From Protonemura montana (taxonomy: Eukaryota; Arthropoda; Insecta; Plecoptera; Nemouridae), in NCBI GenBank assembly GCA_947568835.1, contig OX387605.1:20960418-21024417 (forward strand): a stretch of DNA of 64,000 bases. Reading direction: 5' to 3'. The notes beneath the pieces were generated by a model. It was not told the origin of the DNA. It saw only the letters and a program-made list of their open reading frames with translations, and did not search any database. Shown here piece after piece: positions 4,824 to 61,600 of this stretch. The position numbers were made by a program, and so were the translations under genes. Each line of letters begins with the position of its first letter. Position 1 is the first letter of the stretch.

Positions 4824-5116
4824 TCAAGACTCAGTGGCGACCGGTCTCAATGGCGACGCTGGCGACGTCTGCGTTGGCGGAGTGGGCAGATGGTGAGGTG
4901 GTAGCAAAGAACGCGCTGCCGCCAACGCTGCTACATGCGCTGGGTAGATCGTTGGGAAGTACGCTGGCATGCTGTAGCTACCGTACTGGCTGTAATTGCT
5001 GGTGTAGCCAGCCGTGTACCCGCCGTTGTAGTAAGAATGGCAGTACATTCTACTGTAAGGGTCGCGCATCAAACTTAGTTCTTTGATTGCAGCTACTCTT
5101 CTCAAGTCTTCGCAAG
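4824..5116 (-). CDS. dsx: dsx terminal coding exon, male-type tail
   Basis: Codes for residues 205-300 and a TGA stop at 4826-4824. The acceptor is excellent (TTTTGTTCTCTTCCAG just before 5116). The reading frame is phase 1, which fits exon 2 (G|CT gives Ala204) and would also fit exon 1 directly. The tail has a Tyr-rich region ([19 protein letters not shown]), then an Ala/Leu stretch and a Pro/Ser/Thr-rich end. This resembles the Drosophila male DSX tail, which is also Tyr-rich then Pro-rich, so a male-specific role is inferred. Direct sequence identity to other DSX tails is low. No canonical AATAAA was seen on this strand within about 700 bp downstream, so the 3' end is unresolved. A GTGAGT at 4797-4792 just past the stop could be a 3'-UTR donor or chance. 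Confidence 0.68.
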
Positions 5117-14100: not shown

Positions 14101-17100
14101 TCTGAGAGACTGACAGTAGACAGACTTAGTTGCATCTAGCACACATCGTCTCCATATACAATCTATCTGCAGATGCAAATTGATATTCTAATCTCACAGG
14201 AGCATTGATCTGTGTGAACTTGCCAGTCTTGGTCAGAGACGACGAAGCCATGCACTTACATTATGCATTTGTTTATTAATATACTTGCTAACGTTTCTTC
14301 ATCCGGTTTATTTTATTGGAAAGGTCAAGGAATGATTACAAATTAACTGAAATCGTTTGTGAACTGCAATGTTTCAGAAATGAAAACTTGAACTATTGAA
14401 AATAATTGACCAAGTCACACTCTCTATTTGTGCGGAATGCGGTAAGAAGGATCAGTCTATGGGAAATTAATCCGTCCCCATAGTTTGATACTATGGAGAA
14501 ATTTTTAATGGTGTAATAAAATGAATAGTAATAATAAAGTATGCAGTATCCTTGCAGTCAGATTCTTGAAGTGTGGTTTTTTTGTGAGTAAAATGTTGAA
14601 TAGTGAAACCATTTTTCATTGCACAATGGAAAAAGACATTTAGTTGTTACCCGTTCTGATAGGACCAGTGCAAGAGTCCAATCGAGACGCACCCAATTAT
14701 TAATTGGCTTCTTTACTAACAAAAAGGAAAATATTGGAAATATTGATGACCCGGAAGTATCGCGCCATGAACACCATCAAATTTTACAAATCGTCCAAAA
14801 AGTATGCTTTCAATAGACTCGAAACCAAATTTACGCAATGCAAGGCTCGCATTTGTTGGGATAGTTCGTAGTTTGAAAAATGTATTTCATATTTTTAGAT
14901 TATTAGAAATGTCCTACATACTTTTTTTTTTGATCGCCAAGGATGCACCTTGGTCCACATCTTTGTTTTGCCCCAGTCGCTGTTTTATCGCTATTCTTTA
15001 ACCACAGCTTTCAAAAAAATTCTAAAATTTCGAAAAAAATCGACAACTAAGAAATAGATGTCAACGACAGTGATTATTCCGATGGATTAGATTGAGAGTG
15101 AAGTTTAAGTTGCACGTAAACAAAACTCTGCAGAGAGAAAACTTCACTTACACTTCAGAGCAAAAAGAACTTGAACTTCGTTTCTAAGTTCATTTTCCCA
15201 CCGCAAAACTATTTTTTGTATTTGTTTCAGTCTCCCCGCAAACTCTCTATCAGCCAGGAAGGAAACACATTTAGAACCCGAGCATTACGTATTGTACCAC
15301 TATCTCAACGCGGACATCTTTGTTATCTGACGTTGACCTAGGCCACTTGGAAACGTAATCGGAATCCCGCACACCTGGCACCAAAAGTAACGACATCCTT
15401 GAAATCACCCCGCCATCACCTAGCGTTGCTCCATTACGTCCAAAGGGTTTCACAGCGTAGTCCAGAGTAGTCTAGTGAGTAGTCCAGTGAGCTCATAAGG
15501 ACTGTCTGACCACTGACTGCATTAGCAGCGACACACATTTAAACACACAACCAACACCTAGAATCACCTTTGCCATATACTCGGAGAACAATATGGATGC
15601 ACTGTGACCACCACGTATAATATGTATAATTTGTACAAACAAAACTTGATATTCTCAAACATTGGATCTTTCTTGATAATTAAATTGAGTAATTTTGCTG
15701 CGTCGTATTAGGTTCCATGTATACTATGGGAGGGTTATACGTGGATGTAGTTTAATATGGTTTAATGTTGTTAATAATTTTCAATGGACTGAATAGAATT
15801 ACAATATTTTGTCAGTTGTTATAGCGAGAATATTATATTGTGGCTGGCATGCATTTTCCACAGTGTGTTGTATTTGATAGGACGTGTCTTAACCAAGATA
15901 TTTACACTCAGCGTTTTGGATTCAGATATTCAAACATAAAATGAGTTTAATATCTCTTAGAGAGAGATAACGTTCAGACAAAACCTGAACCCGTGTCTAT
16001 TAAAGCGAGTGTAGTGTCACGAGGCCACGAATGGAATTTGCTCAGAGTTTCCAATATTGCTAGGGCCTATTAAGATATTTGGTTAAAGCAATACCCGCAC
16101 AAGGTGGAAATGTGGGTTCTCGTCCCCGGTTGGGTAACTTTTTGAGAGGATATAGGTGTTCCGAATGATAAAATTGAAATTATGATTTTTAATGTTGGAA
16201 GAAACTCCGGCTTTAGGTAAGAAACTGTATTCTGTTCTGCCCGGTACACGAACATAAACAACCACGCTTTGTTTTAGTAAATTTTCCTTCTCGAAACAAT
16301 CACTATAGCATTATTTGTAACAGTCCGTGCTGTACCAGAACAAGAATCAAAATATTTAAAATTTTATTAAATAATCATAATAAAAACTTTGTTACAAAAT
16401 GGGCAAAAGGTAATTAGCATTTTCACTGTTTTCCAAAGTTTAGGCAAAATCAGAAAAGTCCATGGTTTGGGAAAAACATGGTTTGAAAAAAACGATTGCT
16501 TGCAACTTGGCGATCAAGAAGGCACCGGAATTGTGTAAAAAATCTTTGTATAATTCTTGTTTGTCGTTGTCGCTGTTTAATACTGAGTGTCAAGGCCTAG
16601 GTATGTGCAAAGACTTTTTTCCAGTCGTAGTTTTCGTAATAAGTTTTCTTTCCACTGGCCTTAAAAACCCTCACACACACATTTCCCCATAAAACATCTT
16701 TCACAGATAATGGAAGACATTTTGTACCTACGATGGTTGGTATACCTGCGATATACCACAGGCATCAAAGTACCTATGTATCTCAATAACTATTTCTCCA
16801 CGCAACTATGCTAGCTAATGAAGTGGCTGTACGCCCAATTGAAAAAAGGAATTTTTGTTTTTTTACGCTTGAACAATTGAGCGCGATTGCAAAGTGCTCT
16901 TATTGGAGAAAGCCTCTCGTTCTGTCTCTTGATTGGACCATGCAGTCAATTCTATCGCTCGTAACTATGCAATTATTTATTTACACGCTAGCTGTAAACA
17001 ATACCTTAATTGTTATCACTGCACAACAATTGTTGGATAATTGCCACAATGATTATATCAGAGTAATTTTGAAATAGAATTGGCATCATCAATGAACGTA

Positions 17101-20100
17101 ATTAGATAATACAATGTGGCGATTTGTCACGATTGCGACGCACGCGTTTAGGCTCGATCTGGTGAGAAAATTAATAACGCACCTAATTTTAATCTCGAAA
17201 AGGGTTGTACATTTTGAGCTAAGAAGCAAAAAGGCCCCTAAAGGGCCTAGAGTAATTTACGTAGGGAAGAAACCACATGGGTGCATATATTTTACACCCA
17301 AAACTAGATGCATAGCATTAGATATACTGTCTGTTATCTTGGTGATGAAATAAACAGCCCTACCTTGAGAGGGAGAGGGGGGGAGGGCGAGAACTTGTAT
17401 GCCTGTTCAGAATCAGAGCCCAATGCATGTAGCGAGTTCAGTTCTGACTATCACCACAAATAATCACGCAAGATTTACACGTTTTTGATAATCACTACGC
17501 AAAGTTAAATTCTTGACCCAAAGTGAATTAGTTGCAGAATAAAATGTCGAAAAGTGACCTGCTAAATAGGATTGATGGTGTAAATACATGCGTGTATCGA
17601 GGGTAGGCTGGAAGGGTAGTTGGTTATAGTATCGGCTCCATGGTTCTACCTAGCTGGCACACAATGTTTTCAGACAACTGCTCCAAAAAGAAGAAAATAG
17701 GGGTTGATTGATGATTTCATTGACGATGCCAATTCTATTTCAAAATTACTCTGATGTAATCATTGTGGCAATTATCCAACAATTGTTGTGCAGTGATAAC
17801 AATTAAGGCATTGTTTACAGCCTGCGTGTACATAAATATCAACCCACAAATTTTGGGTTCAGGATCCTTGAACCACTTAACAATCGGTCTTGCTTCTGAG
17901 TGACATAGTAGGTACAGAAAGCATGGACCAAGCTCATTCTTCCTGGTATTAAAACCCCCAAAATTAAATGGCATCGTATTAAACCGAATCTTTTGCGAAC
18001 TTTCTTGAATTCATTAATTTTAATTTATTTATTTATTAGCTTTGTATCTTTTTAAATTATATCCTATTACATACTTGCAAAGGTATACATACAGTAAAAC
18101 AGTACCGATACCGATAGGAAAACTACCGATACCTACTCATCGATTGGTGCAAATTTAAGACACTTACGAATCTGTCACGAGAAATAAAATGTTGTCGTTT
18201 TTGGAATTTCGATCTTTTTTATGAAGCCAATCGATTCGTTTCGATACAAAGACGATTTTATTTTATCTGAAGCTTTAAAACTAATTAAACAAGGTCTAGA
18301 GACGATCAAAGTTTGAAGAGTTTGTTGACAAACTAGTGCGGTCGACTGAAGTAATTATCACCACAGAAACATACTTGCATTTATCATAAGTCTCCACTTG
18401 AAAACAGAGATTTTTAGACGGGGTTTGAGTTACGGCAGGTATTGGTAACGTGGATTAATAAAAAATCCAAGCAATTGACAAAAACCGCTATCATCAAGTA
18501 ACTGAAAATGTTGACCACAAACCAATCTAAAAATGTCAAATGATTTCTGCTTGTAAACTATTTTCCATCATAGGCCGTGTATTTAGTGGTTTCAGGGAAA
18601 AATATCAAAGTAATGGTGAGGGCGACGAAACAGCCCTTGGCTCAGAATGACTTGCTTCTCGTATCACAGCTTAGATGAAGGTGTTAACGATATTGTGTAC
18701 AAAATTGGTTTCCCTATCTCAAGTCATAACTGCTAACGAAGAGCTGAATTCCGAAATTTCGATTAACTCCGATAAAATGCGTTCAGCATCATCTCATTGA
18801 TATTTTGCTTCTACTTTTTTACGATTCCTGATCCTCAAATGTTGATAACTTTTAGATTTGACTGAAGAAAAAACTGTCATTTTTTGTGTACATTGTTATA
18901 AAAGCGTTTGTCTACAACGCCCTTACGCATCCAGACCCAGTACCTGTTGACATGCTTACTAAGTACATACCATTTTTTCTGCCAATAGACGTTTAAGCCC
19001 TCGAGACACCTGTGACCGTAATCCTACAAAAATGCACCTTCACAAAAAATTGAAAGCAATTTCTCGGACTGCAGACATTTTTTGGCACATTTAACATAAC
19101 ATGCCACACTTCAATAATGCAACATGCCTGCATGCTTAAAAGTAGTCAGCCTGCTTCCAGTCCACCTGGAAGAGAGTTTTCAAAGCAATTTGTAGAACAT
19201 AAATGTCAACCACTCACCGAAAGCTGATGGGGATCATCAAGAGGCGGCACACTTGGCGTTATTTCAAAAGATTCGTATTTTAATGATCTTAATTGAATAT
19301 CAATATAATTGGTAATTTATTAAAGTATCATTGGTCATTAATCATTTTCATTCTTCTTGACCATTTCAATATAAAAACTATTAAAAGATAAGTAAGTATA
19401 TTGTTTTTAGAATACTTTAAATGAGTTTTGATCATTCAAATTTTCAGAGTTTGAAAAGTGAAATAAATATCATAATTGAAATTATGTTCATTGGTCCATA
19501 CTCAAATAAAATAAAATTTTAAAACGATTTTTCAATAATTATTTTCTTTTTGGTTCTGCGAGCTTTCTGGTTGTTGGCTGGCTGGACTGGTCGGTAGTTG
19601 AGTTGATTCTGGTGTCGTAGAAGCCTTCACATATGATGTAACATGGTGATGGAGCTGTTGGTATCGCTGGTATGGCTGACGATGTGATGATATTGCTGAA
19701 GATTTGACGGTTTTGCTGACGATTTGACGGCATTACTCACGGTATACTGACGATATGATGAGACTGAATTATTGCTGATGATACAGCTGACTGTAGTATG
19801 AATTATACATATCTTGAGTTATCGCTTGTGATATCAAATAAGTTAACAAAAATCCACCTATTTCATCGAAATATGGCGACGAAACGAGCTTCTTCACTGG
19901 TGACACGTTTTCTGAAAGTCATCCAAATTCCCACCGCGTTTTTCATGAATTATTATTCAATTGAATAGCTCATTGCCGCAATTTGCACGGCTGTATAACA
20001 TTGTGCAGATCATTTATTACTTTGATGCAAACTCAAGGACTTGGCAAGAACGTCGGAAAACACTTCACACGTGTACACTTTTTTCGCAGAGAGGCTAATG

Positions 20101-23100
20101 CAAAATGTTTAATCATTTTCTAATGCATATTGAAAGAAAGATTCAGTTATGTAATAGAAAAATACTTGTTATTGTATTGTAATTGATTGCATGCTAGAAT
20201 TGTTTCAGTATTGTTTCAGAATAAATAGTTGTAGTACGCTCTGTATATGTCTTTGATTATATTGCTGACCATTTGTTTTAAACGCCATCTTTAATTTTCG
20301 TCAGCTGTGTTGACGATCATCGTCGAGTTTGTCTTCTGTCCAGTGCTGATTTCATCGAGTTCCCACTTTAATTAACACAATTAACAACTTGCAGATATAC
20401 TTTTCAATCATTTATTGCTAAGAGCATATTGCAAAATCGCTTTTATTTCCTTTCCAATGGCGTATAAATTCACACGAATAAGCGGAAAAAGGCTGAGCGA
20501 TTTTTTTCTATTTGACAGTACGCAATGTCAAGGACGTGATGATAAATAAAATGCGACTGCATATGCATTCGAAGCACCGATACAATAAATTAACAAAGTG
20601 GTAAGTACACACAACAGTATTGAGTGTCGGTGTCACTAACGTGTAGGTACCTCTTGGCGATAAATTTTTCATTGCACCAAACCACTGGAGCCGGTTTTCA
20701 ACACAACCGGGAAAAACAATATTACTCGGATCTATTTTACAATCGAATGCACTTTGCGACCGCGTTGCAAGAAATAGCACCGACGAAATGGCAATTGCTG
20801 GAAAACATTTTTAATAGTTTTAAACTGAAAAATCTCTGGTTTTGTTTTTAAGTTTAATGCTATTGCTGTGCGTCATGCTTATAGTGCATATTCGTTTATA
20901 ATACCATTGTTTTGTGAGTTATCTATGATCAGCAATGTCTGTTACTAGTGGTATTCATTGTTCTGATAAAACACAATTTTTATGTCACGATTGTGTGGAT
21001 TTTATGTTTTTGTAACATAGATATTTAAATTGGTAAATGCACAAATACTAAATAGCAGGTAAGCAGCGTATATATGATGTGTTCCTGGGTTGCGGTGGCT
21101 TTTCATGTGTAGGAAGAATCGAGACATCAAGCTGAGCCAATCAAAGATTGCAGATAAACGCCGTTAAATGCCGGTAATGAAGAGATAAGGTGATTTTATT
21201 TGTCGGTGAAACTTCAATTTAGTTGGAATGTTTTTATATCGACTTCTTTGGCTGTAAGATTCGCTACGATTTTTATTGCAACCTAACGATAAGAATTACT
21301 TTTTAACCTCGTATATATAAAGTGCTTTTGCTGCCTTCTGCAAGAATTTGATTTTCCTGCAATTTGCTTTAATAGTCACCAAGTTTTGATGAAGTTTTGC
21401 CATCTATTTTTCTGTTTAGAAAACGCAAAGGATCTTTTGTCAGTGTCATCTTCTCAAGGTTATTGGAACGGTATCTTCAGTTATTTGCCATACTGGAAGC
21501 TTCATCCATCTTAGAAGTCAATCAAGTAGAATCAAGTGTTATTTTTTTGGCAAATAGAAATCTCAAGGCGGGTCATTTTAACATTTCAGTCTTGTGCTGG
21601 CAACGGTTAATCCATAACGTGTAGTTCTGGAAGATTCTTTATCCCAAGATTTTTCTTTTATGAAAACTGCATTTTTCTTGTAGATTTTTATACAAAAAGT
21701 ATTTTTATTTGGTTCCTCTGGTAAAAACATTCGGTTACCAACTCGTACAATGTCCTCGGTCGTTGTACGCTTGATTTTAAGTTCTTCGAGTTATTTTGGG
21801 TATTATCCAAAGATATTGCTCCATTTAGCGATCTTTACAGCTCGTGTCACTTCTCTGGCAATTTACTTTAATTACGTTTTATTCACTCGAGTGCCACTGT
21901 GAATCACTTAAATTTCATTCAAAGTTTCTTTGCTTCAAATTCTTACTTTGTAATGGAGTCTGCAATCTTGATGACTTTCTTTTACCAAGCAATGTAAGTG
22001 ACATATAGCAAAGTTTATATTTAATCATTGAGACACAAGTTGACAATTTGAAACTGGTGTTTAGACTTGAGAAAGATAAATTTAAATTGAAAATACACCT
22101 TCTTGCATGTGTTTTTTCTTGTCGTCCGATGCATATTTAGATTTTAGATGTAAAAATCATAATTTATATAATGAAATTGTAAATTTGAGTTGATTTGTCT
22201 CAAGATACTGAAATTGAAATGACTTTAAAAATGCTTGTTAGTAAATTTTTTCTTGGAATCTCTTCGATGCAGGGTGTGTTGTCATTTGATTTTCTTCATC
22301 CAGAAGTTTCAATGCTTCTTCACTTTTTTCAAGTCACTAAATCACTTCTATCTATAATCAATTTCCTGGCTTTCTCACGCAAGACCACACAGGTAAAAAA
22401 CCCCTTCTTTATAAAGTGAAACCATCAAACAAATTTCAAAAAAATTGAAATACTTTAAAACTTTGGCGCAAACAAAATTTTAACTGAATATTTAAAAAAA
22501 TTGAAACTATTTTGCGTGAGACTTGATTAAATTTTACTTGGTACCCACCAGTATTTATTTGAATTGCCGTTTCTTTAACGTCTAGTTTGCACAGCCTCAA
22601 AATCGCGAGCACAATCGGTTGAGCGTCCACCGATAGTCGAAACATCTCAACCAGCGTCTTAATTGAGTCTACGGGGATGTCCGTCGGTAGCCCACAGTTC
22701 TCACCTGCGGCAATGTGACCTGGAAAACAAACAAAACCAAATGTCAGCGATCTTACCGTTGACCGTACTCTTTTTGTAGCAGAATGCGTGAGGTGTCCTC
22801 CACATTTGAAAACATCCGCCTAAGTTGATGGGTATAGGTCGTTTTATTAATGTTTGTCACTTCTTAATTGGTATCAGGCAGCTAGCAAGGAGAAAAAGCA
22901 GCGATGGTGCTGCTCTCTATTATCCGCTGCGCTCCACAAAAAGGAAGTGATCTGCATCTTACAAATCGGCCAGGATAAGGGACTGACTGTCGTGGCTTTC
23001 AGATGGTGGTAATACAGTTTCTAGTCCGCGAGAGAAGATACCAGCACAAGGACTGCCCATCAGCATTGATACCAACTCATGAATTAAATGTCAGCTATGA

Positions 23101-29700: not shown

Positions 29701-32700
29701 CTGATATTTATCGACCAGGCGCGAACGAAGATCGTTGCTTTTGGCTCATTTCCAGGGGTAATTCGTAGATTATTGGTCGTATTGGCTTTGAAACTTGTCC
29801 TAACGCCTTGATTAGTGGCAAATAAACCTTTGTAACAAAAATTGTAAGTCGGAAACTATAGGCGAGTATTTATTTATCGATAAATTAGAATTGAATTACA
29901 ATTTATATTCAAATAACTTTGATGACAAACCATGGTAATGAGTCAGACTTCCAATAAGTTTTTTTTTCTTTATGTTGCTATAGAAATTATAATGATATGT
30001 CCGTGATTATATATGTGCTTTTAAATTGTACAGGCATTTAATTTTGAGTCACCCATACCGTTTTTAGAAACAAGGCATTTTATCAAAATTACATGCTAGC
30101 CACGTTACTTTAATAATTAAAATATGATTCTGTGCGATGTACTTTTTCAAGAAAACAGATAGCTTTTTCTTTAATTAATTAATAAATCTGTTGAACGTGT
30201 ATTTCCTTGCTTTTGGTTTGTTACTTGATCATGTTTCGGAATTGTCGAGCTCGACATTTCAAATTTCAGATCATTTCCGCTCATTTTAAATCAGTTAAAA
30301 CATAAATAAAAATGGAAAATCAGTTTAAACCTGTATAACACTAAACCCCAAAGCAGGAAATCTTACTAACTCACTAGAAACTAATACACCTAAGTACAGA
30401 GACAAAAGAATAGAACATCTTCTACTATAACCCTTCAGTTTTCAACAACTCATTCAACACCCTCCTCAAGTCCAAAACGACATTAGCCCTGAGGGAATTG
30501 CAGCATGTTAAAATTGCACAACACTTATTGCACAATGGAAGAGGTACTCGCAAGCGAACAATTATTTTAACGAGCAGTTAATACAGCTTAGAAAAGATCA
30601 ACTAAGTCTACAGATGTCTTACGATAGGGTTGTCACGTACTGGCTATTTCGACCGACAAACACTTTTCTAAACACTCTTTACTCTCTCATGGTCTCTCAC
30701 ACGCAGAGTAGTGGTGATTGAAATTTATCTGACAATTTCTCTACATTCGTGACTAGATTTGTATACAGACTAAGAAATAAAGTGTGACTGGTGCTGAGAA
30801 CAGAGACTGCAAACACATGGTTAATTGTGTCTACCGCGGTATACGCACATTTTATGTAATTTTCTTCTGCAAACTTAGCATTAATGGTAAAATAGCATGA
30901 AATCTGTGTTAAGTGCAGGCATGGAGAGGCGTTCCACAAGGTAACATGAACGCGCACTCGATCTGGGACGCCGTTTTTCCTATTTTTTATGATTTGAGAT
31001 ACAAATGTGTATTTAAGGAAGATTGAAAAAGCGTATATGAATCTTCGCACTCAAAACTTGCGCCTTTGAAGTTTTCAGCTTTTTTTATCGATTATTTTCA
31101 CCACAAAGCTCTGTTTTATGTCAGAGTGAGATACTAAATATAATGAGTGTGAACGACTAAACATCCCTCTCCCTTTATTTGAATGCATTGCAGTCACTTC
31201 TGCCTTCCCCAAAAAGACAGCGTCAAAATGACACGCCATGCAAAGGGTGTAGAGGGAGAGTATTAGAGCTAAAAAAAGATTAGCCATTACTGGTCTGGTG
31301 ACAGTGGTTTGTGACCATCATCTCCTTCAAAATTATGTCAAAGAATTCGAATGGTTGGTTGTCCATGGTAAAAATTGCAACTTCAAATTGAATTGCAATA
31401 AACTGAATTTCGCGAATAAATCCCTTAGCTTCGTGTGGTTAAAACATACAACAAAGTGGAAACCGCATTAAAAAAAGGAAAATGCAGTATTTCTATCCTA
31501 GCAAATAATGGATAATGGATAATGGATAATGGATATGAGTAATGAGTTTATAAGTGACTAAGCGAGTGTAAACATAGAAATTAGCAGACCCTTACTCAAG
31601 CTAAATTCTGTGCAATGAAGGTTTCCAAACAATATTTGCAGATTGAGAAAAGACGCAAGACTTACTTTTAACTTTTGATGACTTTTTAAATGACTCTAGT
31701 CTTTATCAGATCATTGCAGGCGTTAGGGAAGGACCGTTCTGAACCGCACGGCTCCAGAACAGTTCTCCATGCTTTAGCGAGAATTGCGAGTCGTGCCTGG
31801 ACCAAAGCACAGTCCTTTGTTTACAGAACGATAAGCAGCAGCCTTGCAATAGAAGCGACGGCAATGATAACGTCAGATATTTAACTGATAAACTACAATA
31901 CTTTTTGTATTTCTGCACTTTGGTATCAATTTTGCATGTCCGAGTCATGGCGTTGAACCATTTTGGTATTTATAGATTTTCCTCAAATCTAAAGCACTTT
32001 CATCGATTTCTAAATTAGTCTTTGTAGGAATTGTCCATATATTTCAGGTTTTCAGACTCACGTCTACTTTATCTAACTTAAGCTATAGTTTAAAAAGCTG
32101 CATAACATCACATTGAAGGTAGGTTCTAAATTAGTGCGCCAACAGTTAGGCTTCACCGAATTATTCAGCCAGCTAGCTGCATAACTTCACATTGAAGGTA
32201 GGTTCTAAATTAGTGCGCCAACAGTTAGGCTTCACCGAATAATTCAGCCAGCTAGCTGCATAACTTCACATTGAAGGTAGGTTCTAAATTAGTGCGCCAA
32301 CAGTTAGGCTTCACCGAATAATTCAGCCAGCTAGCTGCATAACTTCACATTGAAGGTAGGTTCTAAATTAGTGCACCAACAGTTTAGGCTGCACCGAATA
32401 ATTCAGCCAGCTAGCTACATAACTTCACAGTGAAGGTAGGTTCTAAATTAGTGCACCAATATGTTAGGCTGCACCGAATGATTCAGCCAGCTAGCTACAT
32501 AACATCAAATTGAAGGTAGGTTCTAAATTAGTGCACCAATATGTTAGGCTGCACCGAATGATTCAGCCAGCTAGCTACATAACATCAAATTGAAGGTAGG
32601 TTCTAAATTAGTGCACCAATATGTTAGGCTGCACCGAATGATTCAGCCAGCTAGCTACATAACATCAAATTGAAGGTAGGTTCTGAATTAGTGCGCCAAT

Positions 32701-35700
32701 ATGTTAGGCTGCACCGAATGATTCAGCCAGCTAGCTGCATAATATCAAATTGAAGGTAGGTTCTGAATTAGTGCACCAATATGTTAGGCTTGACCGAATG
32801 ATTCAGCCAGCTAGCTGCATAACATCAAATTGAAGGTAGGTTCTAAATTAGTGCGCCAATATGTTAGGCTGCACCGAATGATTCAGCCAGCTAGCTACAT
32901 AACATCAAATTGAAGGTAGGTTCTAAATTAGTGCGCCAATATGTTAGGCTGCACCGAATGATTCAGCCAGCTAGCTGCATAACTTCACATTGAAGGTAGG
33001 TTCTAAATTAGTGCACCAATATGTTAGGCTTGACCGAATGATTCAGCCAGCTAGCTGCATAACTTCACATTGAAGGTAGGTTCTAAATTAGTGCACCAAT
33101 ATGTTAGGCTTGACCGAATGATTTAGCCAGCTAGCTGCATAACTTCACATTGAAGGTAGGTTCTAAATTAGTGCACCAATATGTTAGGCTTGACCGAATG
33201 ATTCATCCAGCTAGCTGCATAACTTCACATTGAAGGTAGGTTCTAAATTAGTGCACCAATATGTTAGGCTTGACCGAATGATTTAGCCAGCTAGCTGCAT
33301 AACTTCACATTGAAGGTAGGTTCTAAATTAGTGCACCAATATGTTAGGCTTGACCGAATGATTCATCCAGCTAGCTGCATAACTTCACATTGAAGGTAGG
33401 TTCTAAATTAGTGCACCAATATGTTAGGCTTGACCGAATGATTCAGCCAGCTAGCTGCATAACTTCACATTGAAGGTAGGTTCTAAATTAGTGCACCAAT
33501 ATGTTAGGCTTGACCGAATGATTCAGCCAGCTAGCTGCATAACTTCACATTGAAGGTAGGTTCTAAATTAGTGCACCAATATGTTAGGCTTGACCGAATG
33601 ATTCAGCCAGCTAGCTACATAACTTCACATTGAAGGTAGGTTCTAAATTAGTGCACCAATATGTTAGGCTTGACCGAATGATTCAGCCAGCTAGCTGCAT
33701 AACTTCACATTGAAGGTAGGTTCTAAATTAGTGCACCAATATGTTAGGCTTGACCGAATGATTCAGCCAGCTAGCTGCATAACATCACATTGAAGGTAGG
33801 TTCTGAATTAGTGCACCAATATGTTAGGCTTGACCGAATGATTCATCCAGCTAGCTGCATAACTTCACATTGAAGGTAGGTTCTGAATTAGTGCACCAAT
33901 ATGTTAGGCTTGACCGAATGATTCAGCCAGCTAGCTGCATAATATCATAGACGGCCGGGGGTCGCTAGTGAACTAGCGAGCATAAAACATTGATATCTTT
34001 TATGAGTCCAATTAGTTGCATTATATTCTGCGATGCAAATGCATCCGGTGTCGCTATCCTGCACAAGTGACCGAAGTTGAGCATGATAGGTAGATGCCAT
34101 TTCAGTGTCCTTTGCCGTCCGCGTGCAATGGCTCTTTTATGTGCTGGCATGTCGGTACTAAATGCAGTGCATGCGGGGATTGCTTTCGGTTTTCCTAGGA
34201 AAAGGTGGAGATCGGGTATCAGGATGTTGTTCACTGGCCCGCTACTTAGAACAGTGTCACATGGGCCGGTGTCTAGGCAGTGATCAGTGCTTTTTTTATC
34301 ACCACGATCAATTGGGTTATTGGTCATGGACCTAAACAGCTTTGGTACCTATATACGCACACAAAATGAAAGAGAAGAATGTATTTAGAAAGTGTGAGTA
34401 AAATGTGTATCCTTTATTAACGCGTAATTAATCCAAAATAAAATCCATAAGAAACCATCGAGAAGAATAAATGGTTTTGATGGATAAGTGTCCCTAAGAC
34501 GGGGGATGGCCGTAGCCAACCGTTTTGGTCAGGAAATGTATATTTAAGTTTGATTAAGAATTTTGACACAAATATATATTTTTTTCATTTTGTGATTCTG
34601 GGACTGTTAAAAATAAGATACTAGATTATTGTGAGAATTTTCATTGCATCAATTTTCGAGGAGGTAGTGTTCCTAGTAATAAAATATTATATTATTATTT
34701 ATGGGGTTCGCATCCTTATAAATTTGGTTTAAAATATGTTTTTAACTCGAATTCATTATTTAACATACATTACTATATACGATCGTTTAGTTATCAAACC
34801 AAGCTCAGAAACAGAGCATGCCATTGCAATGTTTGGTTCCACCAAGAAAAAGTAAAAAAAAAAAAAGAGTGCACATCCAATAATACAAGACCAGCAAACA
34901 ATTAACTAGTTCACATTTTACTTATGCAGCTGGAAACCTTGGCACTTACAATTAAAGTGTATAAGGTACTGATAATTTTGCTTCCCATCATGAGCACATT
35001 TGAATCGTTCAATCGCATTCAAATAGTGCGAGAGCACATAGTTTTAATACATGTACGCGTTGTTTGTAAGTTAATTTTATCTTGCATGCGTAATTAAGAT
35101 GTCAAGTAGTGTCACAATTAGCACATCGTGCACATTACGCACCCTCGTCATATTGTCCCTCTACTTTCCTATACAGTGCATCATACTAGAATACATTATC
35201 AGTGAGCGAGCTGATACCAGCAAGCGACGGATGGAATGGAGCTTGACTGGTAAACTGCGCGTTCGAACCGGGATACGAACCCGGGACCTCCTAATTACCG
35301 GTAGGGTGCTCTACCAACTGTGCTATCGGGGCACACATATTAGAGTTTTCGTGGGTTCATAATAAAATAGTCTGCCCTTTGCAAACATTATCAATTTGAA
35401 TAAAATTTCGCGACTAATGTAAGCTTATTATTAAGATCACTAATAACCTTTGAAAAATTGGTGCCCATACGGGAACTCAAACTCCGATCTCCACCTTTCG
35501 CGGGTGTTTCTTTAACCAATTGAGCTACTTTGACATGTCATTTCATTTGAGCACCAATTTTTTAGAGATTATTAGTGTTTCTAATAATAACATACTTTGC
35601 GCATTGCAAACATGTCCAATTAGAATCAGATTTCACAATTGTACGCGTATTTAATTAATTTTGTCTGAATGGAAATGCATGGACTCAAACTTGGTGAGCA

Positions 35701-50700: not shown

Positions 50701-52352
50701 TGGCTATCAGATGTTATCATCTTGAAAATATTTTATTACATTCGCAATTCCAAAAAAGTTTTCCTACACCAATCAATCACAAAGCAATGATAAGAAAGAA
50801 ATGAATAATATTTTTACTGGCGAGCGTTCAAATCTTTTTCTCCTGCTATTAATTTGTTCTTAGATTAAAACAAAGAAGCAAATTAAAGCAAACCACATCG
50901 CACCACATCCTAGCTGACCAACATCGGCGAGAGTAGATAATACAGACATGCATCACCCCGACAAGCACCCAGTGCTGACAGGCTCAGTCATATCCTAGCT
51001 ACATTTGTGCACCAATCGGGGGAAAAAAACGGCCGCCTCAGGGGCATGTTCCGAATGCACTAGCCACTTTTGACAAACCTTGCTCCCGTGTCAGCTACGT
51101 GAAACAGTCATTCCAAACATAATTGCATTTTAAATGCAGCTGTGTCTTTAGGTTATAATGCAAGCTGCTAAACACTATAATTTCAATAATTTTAGAAGAT
51201 GCAGCCGTATTCAAGAACGCGGCGAGTTCTAGTCTCGGGATTTGATTTAGAACCCTGACAGCTGCATCTAAGGTGGTCATAAGTCATGCATAAAGGGATA
51301 GAAAACCTGTGCAAAGCAATTTGCACAATTGATGCATAAGTACTAATAATTATGTAACAAGTACCATGTACTCAGAAGCATAATAAACGACCGGCACAAG
51401 TACAATGTTTCGTGTTTACCACGGGGTTTTGATGAAGAATGATCGTGAACAAAACTCGTTGCACTCGACGATGAAGTCTCACAGTCGGCTATAATTATTA
51501 ATGTTATTATGTGCGAAAAGCCGGCGAGTTTAGGGCATTTATAATTTCCTACTAGTTTTTCTGCGTCGAATCGAACGGACACGCGAACTTGCGATCGAAC
51601 CGATGCCATCCGCCAAGTTCATTAAAAGCACGGATATCTATTCAGGGACGCAAAGCATGTGATGCGATAAGAGTTTATCCACAGCACTGTGCAACAAAGT
51701 ATTAAGTCTTTGTTGACTCTGATAGTATCGTAAAGCAAGCATGTTTTTTTTTCCGTCTAGGTTCAATTTCTTTACTAGATTCGCCTTTCATATTTCTTTC
51801 AGTCATGGGTTACCCCGTCTATATCGTTAAAAAGCAAAAAAAAAAAAACACCAGACAATACGACGCCAAAAGGCGCTCATACAACTATAACAAAACTGAC
51901 GTCAAAAACTCACCGGCTGCCGCGGATTGTGCTGGCGTCGGAGGATGCGTCTTCGGATGCCAACTCGGTGGAGTCGGGAAGACAGCCGTCGATCCTGGAC
52001 GCCCGGAAGACGACATCGACGAGTCGCACGAGTTCTCCATCGAGTTACCAGCAATCTCTTCGACGATGCCGGACCCCGACGTCGCGCGTTGCTCGTCTTG
52101 CGCCTGGTTTCTCCTGAGAGCAGTTTGAGCGGCCATCACTCTTTGCCGTTCAGCCGTCAGACAACACTTTTCGCAAGGACACTTCCGAAACCGACAAAAC
52201 CGCTTGTGCCCTTTCAACGCGATTTTCAGCCCGTGATTGCGACATCGTGCGCAATTCGGCGCCGTGCGCGGGGTTCGTCGCGATGCACTGCTCGTGCTGG
52301 ACGCACTACCCACCATAACTGAACTCTTGTCGCTCTCAATATTTGCAATCAT
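4824..52352 (-). CDS. dsx: doublesex (dsx), three coding exons, male-type model
   Basis: Sex-determination transcription factor of the DMRT family; DSX dimers bind DNA in the nucleus and direct sex-specific differentiation. The model joins 52352-51914, 22719-22549 and 5116-4824 on the minus strand. Every junction is phase 1 with GT donors and AG acceptors, giving 903 nt, 300 residues plus stop. Seen directly: a DM zinc-binding domain (about residues 33-80), a UBA-like oligomerisation domain (about 160-203) and a Tyr-rich then Pro-rich tail (205-300). The paralogues Dmrt11E, 93B and 99B are unlikely because the DM domain carries GLKI, CEKC and the LTAERQ / QTALRR / QAQDE pattern of DSX. Introns are about 29.2 kb and 17.4 kb. 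Extra exons, 5' non-coding exons and a female-specific exon may exist and were not found. The join is inferred from phase, splice sites and domain order, not from transcripts. Confidence 0.85.
6690..6740 (-). mobile_element. 5S-SINE tail fragment
   Basis: Contains GTTTAACGACGCATCG, the reverse complement of the conserved tail end of the 5S-derived SINE; only a short piece is recognisable. Confidence 0.4.
8540..8870. other. GC-richer island in dsx intron 2
   Basis: About 330 bp of balanced base composition with overlapping open frames on both strands (plus from 8630, minus 8476-8829). It lies within the presumed sex-specific intron. No frame matches a known protein and no convincing acceptor or donor in dsx phase was identified. 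Confidence 0.4.
9273..9288. repeat. poly(G) run, 16 nt
   Basis: An uninterrupted G run in AT-rich dsx intron 2. Confidence 0.85.
9920..10012 (-). mobile_element. fragment of 5S-derived SINE tail
   Basis: A degraded tail of the same SINE family, with an ATTG-type tandem end (9925-9938) and a diverged version of the conserved tail block. Directly neighbours the long copy at 10030. Confidence 0.5.
10030..10495 (-). mobile_element. 5S rRNA-derived SINE, minus-strand long copy
   Basis: The reverse complement of the copy at 3935-4412. The 5S-like head is at about 10391-10450; the tail on this strand ends in an (AAT)n run (10028-10042), consistent with retroposition. A second short piece of the same body follows at 10530-10600. 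Confidence 0.82.
10530..10600 (-). mobile_element. fragment of 5S-derived SINE body
   Basis: Shares TTCATTCCCTCCAACCTCT and CCGAACAGAA with the body of the full copy immediately upstream, then loses similarity. A truncated second copy or a local duplication. Confidence 0.6.
11922..11936. repeat. poly(C) run, 15 nt
   Basis: An uninterrupted C run in dsx intron 2. Confidence 0.85.
12359..12694 (+). repeat. dispersed repeat family B, longest copy
   Basis: Runs from a TCGGTAATATGAAA-like start through the perfect short hairpin GCGCCACCCGATGGCGC (about 12431-12447), then AGATTAATTGAGC, AGTAGCATCCTCCATTT and TTTATCGCGATGACAGTTTA. Four copies in the window share this order of blocks. No tRNA or 5S head and no open frame were seen; class unknown. 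Confidence 0.7.
16005..16176 (+). mobile_element. tRNA-like SINE (family C)
   Basis: Begins near AGTGTCACGAGGCCACGAAT; the tRNA-like core holds TTGGTTAAAGCAATACCCGC and a B-box-like GGGTTCTCGTCCCC. The tail is TTTTTGAGAGGATATAGG then GAATGATAAAA. The head matches 56458-56590 and the tail matches the element at 60199-60328. Confidence 0.65.
16982..17830. repeat. 115-bp inverted-repeat pair with about 620-bp interior
   Basis: The left arm 16982-17096 and right arm 17716-17830 are near-perfect reverse complements with only a few mismatches. The outer ends both read TACACGC inward. The interior has no recognisable transposase. Either a non-autonomous element with long terminal inverted repeats or an inverted local duplication; no clear target-site duplication was seen. 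Confidence 0.7.
17380..17394. repeat. short G-rich tract
   Basis: A G-rich stretch (GAGGGGGGGAGGGCGAG) inside the inverted-repeat interior; a purine-rich low-complexity segment only. Confidence 0.4.
19675..19734. repeat. 20-bp imperfect tandem repeat, three units
   Basis: GCTGACGATGTGATGATATT and two variants start at 19675, 19695 and 19715, followed by looser GCTGATGAT-like echoes to about 19790. The open frame on the minus strand across it is explained by this low complexity. Confidence 0.6.
22549..22719 (-). CDS. dsx: dsx coding exon 2, divergent oligomerisation domain
   Basis: A 171-bp symmetric (phase 1/phase 1) exon. The acceptor is preceded by a pyrimidine-rich tract ending TTTGTTTTCCAG; the donor is G|GTGGGT with the intron starting at 22548. 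It codes for residues 147-203. The stretch [16 protein letters not shown] (172-187) aligns without gaps to the helix of insect DSX OD2 that carries FRYPW..MPL...IL, keeping F173, R174, P181, I186 and L187. The next 16 residues align without gaps to the DSX segment ending RIEE and stop exactly where other insects switch between male and female tails. The family's usual Trp is Val177 here. An alternative acceptor, GCAG|GTGAG, lies 12 bases inside the exon. This could also be read as a DMA-type UBA fold, but the DM domain argues for DSX. Confidence 0.82.
24045..24080 (-). mobile_element. 5S-SINE tail fragment
   Basis: GTCGTTTAACGACGCACCGT matches the conserved tail of the 5S-derived SINE; the rest of the element is not recognisable. 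Confidence 0.4.
25943..25958. repeat. poly(G) run, 16 nt
   Basis: An uninterrupted G run just inside a CAGTGGCGT motif (25924-25932), in a GC-rich stretch. Confidence 0.8.
26137..26759. mobile_element. putative TIR DNA element within a GACGCC repeat
   Basis: Starts CAGTGGCGT (26137-26145) and ends with its perfect reverse complement ACGCCACTG (26751-26759). GACGCC hexamer repeats lie just outside both ends (26108-26121 and 26760-26798), as if an element had inserted into or beside one hexamer tract. The inverted ends are only 9 bp and no clear target duplication was found, so this is tentative. No transposase frame. Confidence 0.4.
26760..26798. repeat. GACGCC hexamer repeat
   Basis: About six copies of GACGCC with one GACGTC variant; a shorter version lies at 26108-26121. 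Confidence 0.8.
26969..26990. repeat. poly(C) run, 22 nt
   Basis: An uninterrupted C run lying 40 bp after a CAGTGACGTAACTAGG motif (26921) that resembles the CAGTGGCGT ends nearby. Confidence 0.85.
28631..28698. repeat. two-step hairpin
   Basis: The inner arms TCAAACATTCACAT (28655-28668) and its perfect complement (28672-28685) enclose a 3-nt loop. The outer arms ATTTCAATAT (28631-28640) and 28689-28698 also pair perfectly. Probably a short foldback element or cruciform. Confidence 0.75.
31504..31534. repeat. heptamer tandem repeat GGATAAT
   Basis: Four copies of the ATAATGG heptamer, a simple microsatellite. Confidence 0.85.
32095..33947. repeat. 80-bp satellite, about 23 units
   Basis: A contiguous array in dsx intron 1 with no spacers. 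A unit contains TGAAGGTAGGTTCTAAATTA, GTGCACCAATATGTTAGGCT and CAGCCAGCTAGCTGCATAAC. The first three units are 79 bp and read CAGTTAGGCTTCACCG; later units are 80 bp. A middle block reads ATGTTAGGCTGCACCG and the right block ATGTTAGGCTTGACCG. Units are nearly identical within blocks, which indicates recent local amplification. Confidence 0.97.
33965..34327 (-). other. unexplained 120-codon open frame beside the satellite
   Basis: An open frame of 120 codons on the minus strand beginning just after the satellite ends. Its composition is more balanced than the surrounding AT-rich DNA. It has a basic stretch ([12 protein letters not shown]) but no motif I can assign. It could be a piece of a decayed transposon or chance. 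It is on the dsx strand but has no obvious splice sites in phase. Confidence 0.25.
35268..35333 (-). mobile_element. tRNA-derived SINE core
   Basis: On the minus strand: an A-box-like TAGCACAGTTGGTAGAGCA and a B-box-like GGTTCGTATCC in tRNA spacing. The 3' acceptor arm is missing, so it is not a functional tRNA gene. The sequence to its right (GGTTCATAATAAAATAG and the following 60 bp) is repeated after the next element. Confidence 0.7.
35425..35590 (-). mobile_element. foldback element with tRNA-like core
   Basis: The left arm (35425-35465, starting TTATTATTAAGATCACTAAT) and right arm (35549-35590, ending TAATAATAA) are imperfect inverted repeats of about 41 bp. Between them, on the minus strand, lies a tRNA-like core: A-box TAGCTCAATTGGTTAAAGA and B-box-like GAGTTTGAGTTCCC. 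The tail matches the plus-strand elements at 16101-16176 and 60250-60328. Confidence 0.65.
36139..36320. mobile_element. two tRNA-like SINE cores in inverted orientation
   Basis: At about 36139-36213 a minus-strand core with B-box GGTTCGTATCC; at about 36245-36310 a plus-strand core with A-box TAGCTCAGGTGATGGAGAAC and a decayed B-box. Both carry GGGAGGTCC before the B-box, so they belong to one family. Neither has an acceptor stem. Confidence 0.65.
36458..36490. repeat. perfect 14-bp hairpin
   Basis: TTCATCAGTCATGA (36458-36471), 5-nt loop, then its exact complement (36477-36490). Not followed by a T-run on either strand, and not part of a recognised gene. Confidence 0.8.
38560..38850. other. 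CpG-richer block in dsx intron 1
   Basis: About 290 bp with more CpG and balanced base use than its flanks. No open frame of note, no repeat copy elsewhere in the window, function unknown. Confidence 0.35.
39215..39262. repeat. short GGTAC-containing tandem repeat
   Basis: TTTTGGTACTT occurs three times in about 40 bp, then GCGGTACT. A small imperfect repeat. Confidence 0.6.
39440..39625 (+). repeat. dispersed repeat family D
   Basis: Shares TTTTTGTGGCCAACTTTGAA, a run of A/AGC, TTCAACTTTTGATAGCCATG, AAGATGCTGAGATCGCC and GACAGAGCTT with copies at 49100, 55670 and 59005. All four are on the plus strand. Confidence 0.65.
42995..43310 (-). repeat. dispersed repeat family B, minus-strand copy
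   Basis: The reverse complement of the 12359 copy, block by block, with the same short hairpin (about 43248-43264) conserved perfectly although the flanking DNA has diverged. Confidence 0.7.
44329..44349. repeat. poly(C) run, 21 nt
   Basis: An uninterrupted C run; a second run of 14 C lies 180 bp further on (44530-44543). Confidence 0.85.
44530..44543. repeat. poly(C) run, 14 nt
   Basis: An uninterrupted C run, same orientation as that at 44329. Confidence 0.85.
46930..47468 (+). pseudogene. decayed 3' end of a non-LTR retrotransposon (LINE)
   Basis: The frame at about 46951-47193 codes for [17 protein letters not shown] then [20 protein letters not shown], the typical C-terminal region after the reverse transcriptase domain of many insect LINEs. 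A frameshift follows; another frame continues with [16 protein letters not shown] and ends near 47370. The element closes with an A-rich (AATAAAATA) tail at 47452-47468. A stop lies just upstream and the 5' part is missing, so it is inactive. Confidence 0.75.
49100..49215 (+). repeat. dispersed repeat family D
   Basis: TTTTTCGTAGCCAACTTTGA, TTTTGATAGCCACGGAGATG and TTACAGAGCG match the other copies in the same order. Confidence 0.6.
50226..50249. repeat. poly(G) run, 24 nt
   Basis: An uninterrupted G run, about 1.7 kb downstream of the DM exon within dsx intron 1. Confidence 0.85.
50393..50500. other. G-rich block in dsx intron 1
   Basis: A strongly G-rich plus strand (GGGGGCGGCGGTGGCAGCAG). 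The minus strand, which is the dsx strand, is open across it and would code for a Pro/Ala/Thr-rich stretch ([20 protein letters not shown]). DSX linkers can be of this composition, but the upstream AG candidates lack a pyrimidine tract. Confidence 0.35.
51914..52352 (-). CDS. dsx: dsx coding exon 1, DM domain
   Basis: Codes for residues 1-146 plus one base of codon 147. The ATG at 52352-52350 has an in-frame TAG eight codons upstream, so the start is well supported. The DM domain holds the two interlocked zinc sites: C34, C37, H40, H49, C53, C58, C60 and C63 are all present. The recognition helix follows with [10 protein letters not shown] and QTALRR. A Ser/Pro/Thr-rich linker comes after it. 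The exon ends at a strong GTGAGT donor (intron starts at 51913), phase 1. Reading through the donor would add only about eight residues before a stop. Open frames on the opposite strand across this exon are shadows produced by its high GC content. Confidence 0.95.
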
Positions 52353-56590: not shown

Positions 56591-57206
56591 GTATTATTTC
56601 ACAATATTATGTAGACATTGTCCAGATACATACGTACAAATATTTACTATCATCTTTCACTATTTACAGCAAGTTACGAGTTAGCCCGCTAAAAATTTGT
56701 TTTTATTTACTCCTATTTTTAGTTGACAACTGATAAGTAATAATATTCGTCAATATTACAGAAAGCCCTTCTTAATAAACACTTTTCACTTTACTTCTAA
56801 GCTGTTTGAGACGTGATGTTTGAGAGATGTTGAGAGAGAGATGTTTTGTGTGAAAGATTCAGTTACTGGTTATAGAGAAGAATATCCCCTTATATTAAGG
56901 GGAAGCGGTATTGGCTACTGTTGCTCAGATAATTGTCTTTCTCTCGTGGCATTTAACTCCAAAAATCAAATGATTTACTTATGAAGTAGAGAAACAAAAA
57001 GTAAGCTTGAAAAGTAATTCTATTTGTTATCTGCATGTAAATGCTGCGTTGCTTTTGAGGTTATGTTATGATCCAGAGCATATAATTTTAAATACATTCT
57101 AAATACAATTATCATTCTCAGTCAATGGTATTTTCAAACGAAAAGAGTTAATCAGAGTTAACATTAACATGTTCTTGATTGCAGCTGTGTCTTCCAATTT
57201 TGCAAA

Positions 57207-57659
57207 ATGAATTCAGAAATCCAGGAGAAAATTCTACGATACGAGGCTTTCATCAACGATCACTTGAAAGAAGATTTAAAAAACGTGTACTTTAAACGTA
57301 ACAAGTTAAGCAGTGAAATCAGTGAATACATTCAACTCAAGAACTCCATCGAAGCTATCACCGATCTGGACGATACATTCAAAACTAAGATGGACATAGG
57401 ATGTAGTTTCTTCATGCAAGCAAATGTTGCTGATACATCAAGAATATTTGTTGACGTCGGTCTAGGATGTTTTGTTGAGTTCACACTTGCGGAGGCTCTC
57501 CGATTTGCTGACCATCGAATCAAGTCATTGACATTACAGACTGATAAGTTAAAGAAAGATTCAGCCAAAATCAATGGGACAATCAAGTTAATGCTGGGAG
57601 GTCTAGCAGAATTGCAGAGTATTAAGAATACCGAAAAGAATGTGCGGAGAGATTTATAA
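57207..57659 (+). CDS. UXT: UXT, prefoldin-like alpha-type chaperone subunit
   Basis: A 150-residue protein matching the whole length of UXT (about 157 residues in human), a prefoldin-like subunit of the URI/R2TP-associated complex that also acts as a transcription cofactor. Visible marks are the N-terminal coiled coil beginning with KILRYEAFINDHLKEDL, the central beta-hairpin block with a cysteine in MDIGCSFFMQA, then DTSRIFVDVGLGCFVEFTLAEAL, and a C-terminal helix. The coding region is one uninterrupted exon. A good acceptor (TTCTTGATTGCAG, ending 57184) lies 22 bases before the ATG, so a 5'-UTR intron is likely. The gene diverges from dsx and runs in the same direction as the decarboxylase gene 700 bp downstream. 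Confidence 0.93.
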   Translation: MNSEIQEKILRYEAFINDHLKEDLKNVYFKRNKLSSEISEYIQLKNSIEAITDLDDTFKTKMDIGCSFFMQANVADTSRIFVDVGLGCFVEFTLAEALRFADHRIKSLTLQTDKLKKDSAKINGTIKLMLGGLAELQSIKNTEKNVRRDL

Positions 57660-58358
57660 AACGATAGCAAACTTTTGAAGAAAATCGACCTTTCAAAATC
57701 TACACTCCCTTTATTTTTTGTATTTGTGTTTACTGATAATTAATATTATTGTTCAGGAATATTTCATCTTGTTATTATTTGTTTCACATTGTTTCACAAG
57801 GAAAAGTAAACAGCATGAAGAAATATAAACATCCTTAAAGCTTAGAAATGATATGGGTTTATATTTGCAGCATGCTGGATGCATTAAAGATGCTTTGTAA
57901 TTTATCACAATAGCCATATCCTTATCTTGGTCCAATTGATGCTATTTATTTACCTATAGGTTGTTTTCAGCAAAAATATTACTATTTCTAAAATATTTGC
58001 ATTCATTTTAGTACGTTCGAGTATTTCGCTTAAGGCTTCTTGGTGTGTTTTCACTGTTTTTATTTTATTTTTATTACAAGAAATCTAGCCCTAATTTGTT
58101 TTCATGTTTTCCGGCGAGCTGATCATTTTGACTGTAGGGTATTCATATTTTAATTAACTAATCAAATTCTTCATTATTGCTGACATGCCATACATTGTTG
58201 CTAAATCATAGCAGTAATACTATTATTCTCCAATCAAAGCCTAATCAGGAAGGACTTAGTGAATTAAATCAAGGTAACAAAATTGAATCAATTAAGAAAC
58301 AACAAGGACGTCCTATAAATACTAAAGCTAACCCCAACACAAGCTTTATTTCGCTACG
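57660..58358 (+). other. UXT 3' flank and decarboxylase promoter region
   Basis: About 700 bp of AT-rich DNA between two genes in the same orientation. It must contain the UXT polyadenylation site and the decarboxylase promoter and 5' UTR. No clear TATA box or AATAAA was assigned. Confidence 0.5.
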
Positions 58359-58639
58359 ATGGAGTCTAAAGATTGGTACAAAAGTTTGCCCGACGAGGGT
58401 TTCCACGGTAAATTCCTGCGCGATGTGTCCGAACTGCTTTATCGCACAGTGTTCGCCAGCTCTCTCCGCGAGAACCCCGTGGTTCGTTGGCAAGAGCCTG
58501 CTCGGCTGCGCCACATTTTGCCACACCAGCTCTCAGAAGAGCCCACATCGCACAACGATTTGTTGCAAGCCATTAAGGACACGATTACATACAGCGTAAA
58601 CACCGGACATCCGTACTTCATCAACCAACTCTTCTCTGG
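58359..58639 (+). CDS. decarboxylase exon 1
   Basis: Start codon at 58359; codes for residues 1-93 and two bases of the next codon, ending in NQLFSG. The donor is GG|GTTTGT, phase 2. The N-terminal part ([14 protein letters not shown]...) is the helical dimer-contact segment of the family. Confidence 0.9.
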
Positions 58640-61600
58640 GTTTGTATTTCTGAACATCTTGGAAACGTATTATTATTGTTTATTCCAACAGATTGCAGTA
58701 TTGTTTGACTCCCTACGGAGCTTGAACTTATGTGTCGTCCGTATAGATCAGTTAATAGAGCACCCGACCGACAACTGGAAGGTCTCCAGTTTTTATCACT
58801 GTTGGGTTCCACATTAATTCAACCTAGCTCACTTTCTAAAAAGACCTTACTCGAGAATTTCGCGGTGCAAGCGCACTTTAGGGGCTACAATATTGAACCA
58901 TCTATACTAAGTTATCAACAGATTTGACATCGTGGTAGGCTATATATACCAGCTTGTTCATTTAACAAGCCTAGACCAGGCTAGAATACTGGAATCGTTT
59001 TAAAAAGCATTTTTTATTGCTAACTTTAACAACAAGAAACACTTCTAAGCATGGGAAATTCAATGGAAGGTTTGACTTTTGAAAGCCATGAAGATGTTGA
59101 GATAGCCAGACAAAGTTTCCTAAATCTGTTTTCTTGATTCAACGGCAATTTCCATGCCAACCACTGACCCGAGTAACCACCTTCTGTGCAGCTTGGATCC
59201 TTATGGACTGGCCGGGCAATGGGTGGCAGACGCCCTCAATGCAAGCATCTACACGTACGAGGTGGCACCGGTGTTTGTCATCCTGGAGGACACCGTGCTC
59301 AAAGAAATGCGGCGTCTGGTTGGGTTTGCTGATGGCGACGGAACGTTTTGTCCAGGAGGATCGATGTCTAACGGTACGGCAACGTTCAATCTTTTTAGAA
59401 TGTATCTCTTTCCTAAAATAATCTGGAACCTGTCTGAGGGATGGTGTTAATAGCAATATCGGCTATCTCACTCATGCTACCAATCAACACTACACAGTTC
59501 TCTCTGTGAAAATCACATTAAACCTTCCCAACGTTAAACCACTCCACCGACAAAGTTCTTGCTAACACTGACATTTTTCGTGTCAAATTGCCCAATTGCT
59601 ATGAAATATTTTGTTAGTCATCTGTGCAGCTACAGTAATCACTGCAGAAATAGCGAGCAATACCGTTATTAGTTAGTGATTACCGTTGTTAGTGATTACG
59701 ATCAGTCCAGTTTTCAGCTCTTAACTTATTTTAAGACAAACTTCATGTATTATACAACTAACTTGCCACATTTTGTGAATTAGGAAATCAAACGATTGCT
59801 TAACCATTAGCTAATTTCCTCATTGTACCAAAAATGTCTCCCATCCTCTAAACCAGTATTTCCAACTAGGCTCGTAAGGCTTTTATCAATGTTTCGTCAT
59901 TTTAATTTTATTTCCTGTATAGAAAAAGTATTTTCATACATGTAAGGGGAAGAGAAAAGTAGAGCGGTTACGGAACTTACTGAGATGAGCGAAGCAATGG
60001 TGGTAAGCCACAATACATATTTGTTTTTTGATATCCATTTTGGCTGTTTTCTTTGTCTCTTGTTGAAAATTTCTGTATTTTTCATAAATATCTAACAGAG
60101 TAGGTAGCTGGCTCTCAGAATTTTTGGATCAGAAAACAACAAGAAGTGTTTTAGCTGAAATCTGATTTAAATTGCAAACGCTTGCAATGCACGAGGTATT
60201 TTATTATTATGAACACTATAACCGTCTCAAAAATGTAAGCCCAATTTTTCGAGTTAGACTTTTTCGGGGTTCGAGTCCCCGTTTGGACATCAATTTTTGA
60301 GAAGGCTATAGTGTTCATAATAATAAAACAAGAAGTGTTAATTCACCAATATTCCATTGATATGATACTGATTTCTAATTTTTCCGATCCAGGCATTGCC
60401 ATGAACCTAGCTCGGTACCACCACTCTCCAGACGTGAAAAAGCACGGCTTGTCTAGTTCTCCGAGACTCATGGCGTTCACTTCGGAGGATGCTCATTACT
60501 CGATGCACAAAATGGCAGCACTACTCGGAATTGGAGAAGACAATGTTTGTCTCGTAAAAACCGACGAAAGCGGCAGGATGATACCAAATAGCTTGGAAGA
60601 AAAAATTATTAAGGCTGTTAACGATGGGGCGGCACCATTTGTGGTTTTAGCTACTGCAGGTTAGCGAAAAATTCCCAATTTGTCCGTTTGTATATTTCAT
60701 TTTGTAGACAAGAGCGGTATAAAAAAATCAGAAATAAACGAGTCGATCTCATGGTTGACAACTTGATATTAACGACCATCATTGATTATGGAGCATTTGT
60801 GACGGTGACAAATTTCTTTTAGTTTTAGTCTTGGCTTATCAATTTCTAGCAACAATTTCAATATTAGTTACTTGAAAAATAAGAGGAGATGGCATGACAT
60901 TAATAAAGATGACTCAGGCCTAAAAAATGCACAAAATCTGGTAGGTTTCGGGGCGCAATGATGCACAGTTTTGACAACAGGCCATATGGCACTCGGTTAA
61001 TGACATAATGGTCTTCCAAATTTCCATTTTGAACATTTTTTTATGATTCAGCATCATTTTACATTTGAAATTTTGGTGATCATTCGACAAAAGTAACAAT
61101 TGTATTGACATGTGATCTTTCCGATAAGGTACAACGGTGCTCGGAGCAATCGACCCACTCCCGGCTTTGTCCGATATCTGCGAGAAACACGGCCTGTGGT
61201 TACACGTTGATGCTGCGTGGGGCGGTGGACTCTTGTTTTCTCGCATGCACCGTCATAAGTTGGCTGGTATCGAGAGGTACACAAGATTTTAAATGTCCCT
61301 GAGTTGGTTACGTTTCATGCGCTCTGAGTGCGCTGATTGAGAAAGGAAGATAATATCTGTGCACTCAATGCATTGTGCACTCGCTTCTGTTATTTCTATC
61401 GCTAAATTGTACACTAAAACAGGTACAAAATGTTGGGATAAAGTCAAAACGCTTTTTGTTTCGGAAATATCATTTTAGTTATTTGAAGATGCCCAAGTTG
61501 GAAGCAAATTTTTAAAAGTGCACAGATGATCAAAGTTGGTTTTTCACATCAGTGGCAATGCTGGACTTGAGAATACAGTCTTATCAGTGCAGATTATTAT

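Follow-up and report, generated by a model that had tools for sequence, protein, structure and literature searches.

The minus strand of the 64-kb window (the whole stretch of DNA analysed here, 64,000 nucleotides from a 258 Mb, 34-contig assembly) carries a doublesex (dsx) gene in which a DM-domain exon is followed by an exon for a strongly diverged dimerisation domain, OD2. We consider it fairly probable that this domain has been maintained with a rebuilt loop, in which the YPWELM of flies is replaced by LSVDAQ; maintenance is something that we infer from the sequence of the exon and its surroundings. The parts of the gene are as follows.

51914 to 52352, minus strand: first coding exon, with the DM domain; begins at ATG 52352 (next in-frame ATG at 52316) and ends in phase 1 at donor CCG/GTGAGT.
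22549 to 22719, minus strand: OD2 (dimerisation) exon; Val177 stands in the Trp column, and the 3' end coincides, in both position and phase, with the common/sex-specific junction of Drosophila.
22616 to 22636, minus strand: loop and start of helix 2, where LSVDAQP faces fly YPWELMP in an ungapped alignment, with helices predicted on both sides.
4824 to 5116, minus strand: candidate for a male-type terminal exon, entered at acceptor ttctcttccag; its split codon G/CT encodes Ala and its stop is TGA.

The DM exon matches the Pfam DM family (7.7e-21) and, in the PDB, Doublesex (1lpv, 2.3e-23), the two solved chains that it matches being DMRT1 and Doublesex. Its domain is of the dsx type, with Lys at position 14 and a type-A motif (Thr-Pro-Pro-Asn-like; definition taken from the available text of PMC4538375). 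A 29 kb intron separates it from the exon at 22719-22549, which it joins in frame, on the same strand and in compatible phases, and with the terminal exon added the expected DM-OD2-tail protein is 300 residues long. Four of the nine DM matches listed for the assembly lie above the Pfam cut-off, and among these four there is one dsx-type gene, that of the window; the signatures of the other three point to Dmrt99B, 93B and 11E. The HPD exons of prospero (C3:21034514-21041271) share contig and strand with dsx, at about 22-29 kb from its ATG (about 22 kb for the nearest). This spacing falls within the 17-245 kb given for seven insect orders in the available portion of PMC6721801, which describes the linkage as lost in Hemiptera; the insect is therefore probably not a hemipteran. 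With a DM exon upstream in a phase that fits, prospero at about 22 kb and the remaining DM genes assigned elsewhere, the window gene is identified as the doublesex ortholog.

Several other features of the locus and of the assembly were recorded. Between doublesex and prospero lie a prefoldin-family gene (57168-57659, plus strand; 4.8e-20 in Pfam) and, at 58332-60664 on the plus strand, three open frames with matches to a pyridoxal-dependent decarboxylase, two above the Pfam cut-off and one below it. The first doublesex intron contains 23 copies of an 80-bp tandem unit (32096-33942, 97% match). Elsewhere, 4.3 kb of contig C4 (5759425-5763762) matches the mitochondrial contig C34 (2004-6341) at 4331 of 4338 positions, and is either a nuclear copy of recent origin or an artefact of the assembly; the mitochondrial gene order looks ancestral, with genes named by eye. 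A cluster of about five hemocyanin-family genes occupies C5:7158099-7195289, and two of its exons are nearest to chains labelled 'TK receptor' by their depositors, followed by phenoloxidases, ahead of hemocyanins; some matches there read through stops, which may be introns. The assembly holds 19 hemocyanin-family matches, and PDB comparison of three of them placed one closest to hexamerins and two closest to the 'TK receptor' chains. A mayfly is a possible source of the assembly.

The OD2 exon is an open frame with a GC content of 0.49, compared with 0.31 in the 300 bases downstream and 0.44 upstream. Scored with approximate matrices, its acceptor (ttttccag) beats 99.2% of the AG sites that the minus strand has between 51.0 and 5.2 kb (2279 in all), and its donor (CTG/GTGGGT) beats 99.5% of 2595 GT sites. 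The exon ends on the split codon G, which fits a following Ala (G/CT), and we take this end to match the fly dsx junction in position and phase, as well as a fly male exon that starts with Ala. The available text of PMC4538375 is consistent with that junction and reports that the alternative forms of a bristletail and a springtail part right after the last OD2 Glu, as in Holometabola.

The initial annotation had aligned this exon without gaps to the insect DSX OD2, and this was borne out against a fly reference whose 74 residues are all identical to PDB 2jz1. Over 44 residues, 11 are identical (25%) and 24 identical or similar, and the Smith-Waterman score of 51 was never reached when the exon was shuffled 20,000 times, and once in 20,000 shuffles of OD2; the next-best of 2190 window open reading frames scored 36. 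As in the Drosophila domain (2jz1, 1zv1; PF08828), the register is kept, the exon follows the DM exon, predicted helices stand on either side of the loop and the end phase at the sex-specific junction is presumably the same; in contrast to it, the loop is LSVDAQ and the exon falls below Pfam detection. Val does occupy the column of the family's Trp, as originally reported, and is residue 177 counted from ATG 52352 (165 from the next ATG). The neighbouring replacements had been described as falling on Leu and Met positions, which holds for Ala179 (Leu) and Gln180 (Met); the residues after the fly Trp are Glu-Leu-Met, so Asp178 faces Glu, a conservative change.

Profile and database searches gave little. 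The initial annotation had named the lack of a significant profile match as grounds for refutation, and against Pfam DSX_dimer the exon fails this check: the native exon gave no match up to E 10 with HMMER filters, and the cut-off of 23.9 bits was not reached. A phmmer search of the exon against the PDB gave no match up to E 10, and searches with fly OD2 against the window gave E 0.21 (phmmer --max against its open reading frames, non-significant) and E 0.006 (tblastn, run with neither filters nor composition statistics). When fly OD2 with its tail was searched against the assembly in six frames, the OD2 exon was the only place among the matches listed, with an E of 5.4 that falls short of significance; a search with the exon as query listed no other copy among the best candidates, the only ones that it scores. 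Homology to OD2 is kept despite the Pfam miss because of position, splice phase, the ungapped alignment and the graft test described below. We think it very unlikely that the open frame arose by chance or marks a pseudo-exon that is skipped, with the true OD2 lost or located somewhere else. The absence of a significant profile match and the whole-genome E of 5.4 favour such a reading, as does the finding that 1956 of 45,632 windows of 56 codons (4.3%) are open on the same minus-strand stretch. Against it, the alignment, the splice sites, the phase at both ends and the place within dsx all agree, and no other place was listed for either fly OD2 or the exon, although the tools score only the best candidates.

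Profile grafts were used to locate the divergence. Fly OD2 scores 107 bits against DSX_dimer, and single changes towards the window sequence cost it 8.2 bits (Trp to Val, the costliest of the four tried), 5.4 (Met to Gln), 3.0 (Glu to Asp) and 2.6 (Leu to Ala), or 19.4 bits for all four. In the opposite direction, fly residues grafted into the window exon restored a match in every case: 19.3 bits for Trp alone (V177W; E 8.5e-4, profile positions 5-45), 38.1 for the six-residue loop YPWELM (E 1.1e-9), 30.6 for helix 1 (15 residues), 28.8 for helix 2 (8) and 41.7 for helix 3 (15). None of ten composition-shuffled controls that carried the YPWELM loop matched DSX_dimer (two matched other families, E 0.03-0.04), so the residual DSX_dimer signal lies in the exon's own residue order. 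If bits are assumed to add, the native exon would stand at about 11 bits (19.3 less 8.2), with gains of about 27, 20, 18 and 31 bits for the loop and helices 1, 2 and 3, and their sum of about 95 would be consistent with the roughly 96 bits lost.

All segments have therefore changed by these estimates, the loop most per residue (about 4.5 bits, compared with 1.3 to 2.2 in the helices) and helix 3 by the greatest share of the total. To our knowledge, the Trp before helix 2 is near-invariant in the DSX_dimer family, and its weight was measured here: the description 'tryptophan replaced' is too narrow as judged from these profile scores, since Trp accounts for about 8 of the roughly 96 bits. The original focus on this residue stands in so far as the loop around it is the most altered per residue, but the drift spans helices 1, 2 and 3. 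Such divergence in all three helices and the loop would also be expected if OD2 were decaying, that is, still translated under relaxed selection, with pairing provided by the DM domain or another partner; the available text of PMC6721801 likewise reports no oligomerisation domain detected in the Dsx of Rhodnius or Nilaparvata. We regard decay, the main rival to maintenance, as possible but rather doubtful: reading frame, end phase and both splice sites are undamaged, identity or similarity extends to 24 of 44 positions, and profile signal persists in register along the domain.

Five single-sequence models of the exon had mean pLDDT values from 56 to 79; the best (78.8) has predicted helices at residues 16-26 and 30-42, together with a short third piece. 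Its helix 2 begins at the Val, and a helix 2 that starts at the Trp column is expected for the OD2 layout. Foldseek of this model against the PDB gave four matches, the best at E 7.6; no UBA or DSX chain was among them, which may be because the exon end truncates helix 3. Six matches to viral models (best E 1.8) were of no use, and none of 25 pattern matches in viral contigs was confirmed as a relative.

For a maintained but diverged OD2, the following arrangement can be proposed. The DM exon would bind DNA, and the second exon would encode a UBA-like dimerisation domain in which helix layout and splice junction were kept as the sequence diverged throughout. Most likely, the domain would still pair two DSX chains, through a hydrophobic interface that has shrunk or been rebuilt in part, and helix 3 would run on into the alternatively spliced tail, as in flies. 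Expression, fold, dimerisation and alternative splicing of this gene are all properties that we infer from its sequence. It seems unlikely that the DSX dimer instead switched surface, with the Trp loop abandoned, helix 3 and the spliced tail taking over, and dimerisation maybe isoform-specific.

Downstream of OD2, the acceptor of the candidate terminal exon beats 99.8% of the 2279 AG sites. This exon, called male-type solely from its phase and first residue, has no Pfam match, and its resemblance to the fly male tail is not significant (a score as high came from 953 of 5000 shuffles). A female-type exon was sought by ranking the 865 AG sites between the OD2 and terminal exons on ungapped similarity to the fly female tail, where the best two scored 9 and had poor acceptors; good acceptors preceded 53 open frames of compatible phase, and none of the 40 listed was convincing. 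dsxRE-like repeats were rejected as a signal, with 14 matches at up to two mismatches where 17.7 were expected; the only one-mismatch site (17702-17714, on the gene's strand) was dropped, as it adjoins the arm at 17716-17838 of an inverted repeat. This inverted repeat (16974-17838; 123-nt arms, 95% complementary and 619 nt apart), which lies between the OD2 and terminal exons, looks like a small mobile element.

Alternatively, the donor at 22549 may go unused in one sex, such that reading through it yields a short tail by an intron-retention switch. The open frame persists for 37 codons, and tblastn with filters off extends the fly match into this stretch (22681-22511, E 1.2e-4); a male dsx isoform made by intron retention in Drosophila and a short female-type oligomerisation domain plus tail (38 aa) in Thermobia are described in the available portions of PMC9307624 and PMC9290531, respectively. 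We nevertheless give hardly any credence to a read-through, as the stretch has a GC content of 0.25 and looks intronic, and modelling the exon with part of it gave a pLDDT of 46, with a low-confidence tail and no gain.

A diverged OD2 beside a DM domain has parallels in other insects, with which the window gene was compared through published descriptions. According to the available text of PMC6721801, the Dsx of Rhodnius and Nilaparvata shares with it a DM domain and an oligomerisation domain missed by standard profiles, and differs in that the pros-dsx linkage, kept here, is lost in Hemiptera. As in the window gene, OD2 is diverged or undetected beside the DM domain in hemimetabolous insects, among them Zygentoma, Zoraptera, Embioptera and termites, from which the window differs by the single dsx-type DM gene seen in its assembly, although its exon may come from one of these groups: the accessible sections of PMC4538375 describe it as diverged in Zygentoma (with similar transcripts in Ephemeroptera) and Zoraptera and not found in Embioptera, and those of PMC8346542 as not found in termites. 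An OD2 beyond detection is thus a known pattern (two Hemiptera, termites, Embioptera), of which the window exon is a further member, and a still-recognisable intermediate. In the text available, the termite and Embioptera papers leave open whether OD2 was lost or has diverged beyond detection, and the Hemiptera paper raises loss as a possibility (PMC8346542, PMC4538375, PMC6721801). An OD2 exon invisible to Pfam is recognisable here by its place, splice phase and register, with the residual family signal shown by the graft-into-profile test, and this approach could decide between a lost and a hidden OD2 in Hemiptera, termites and Embioptera.
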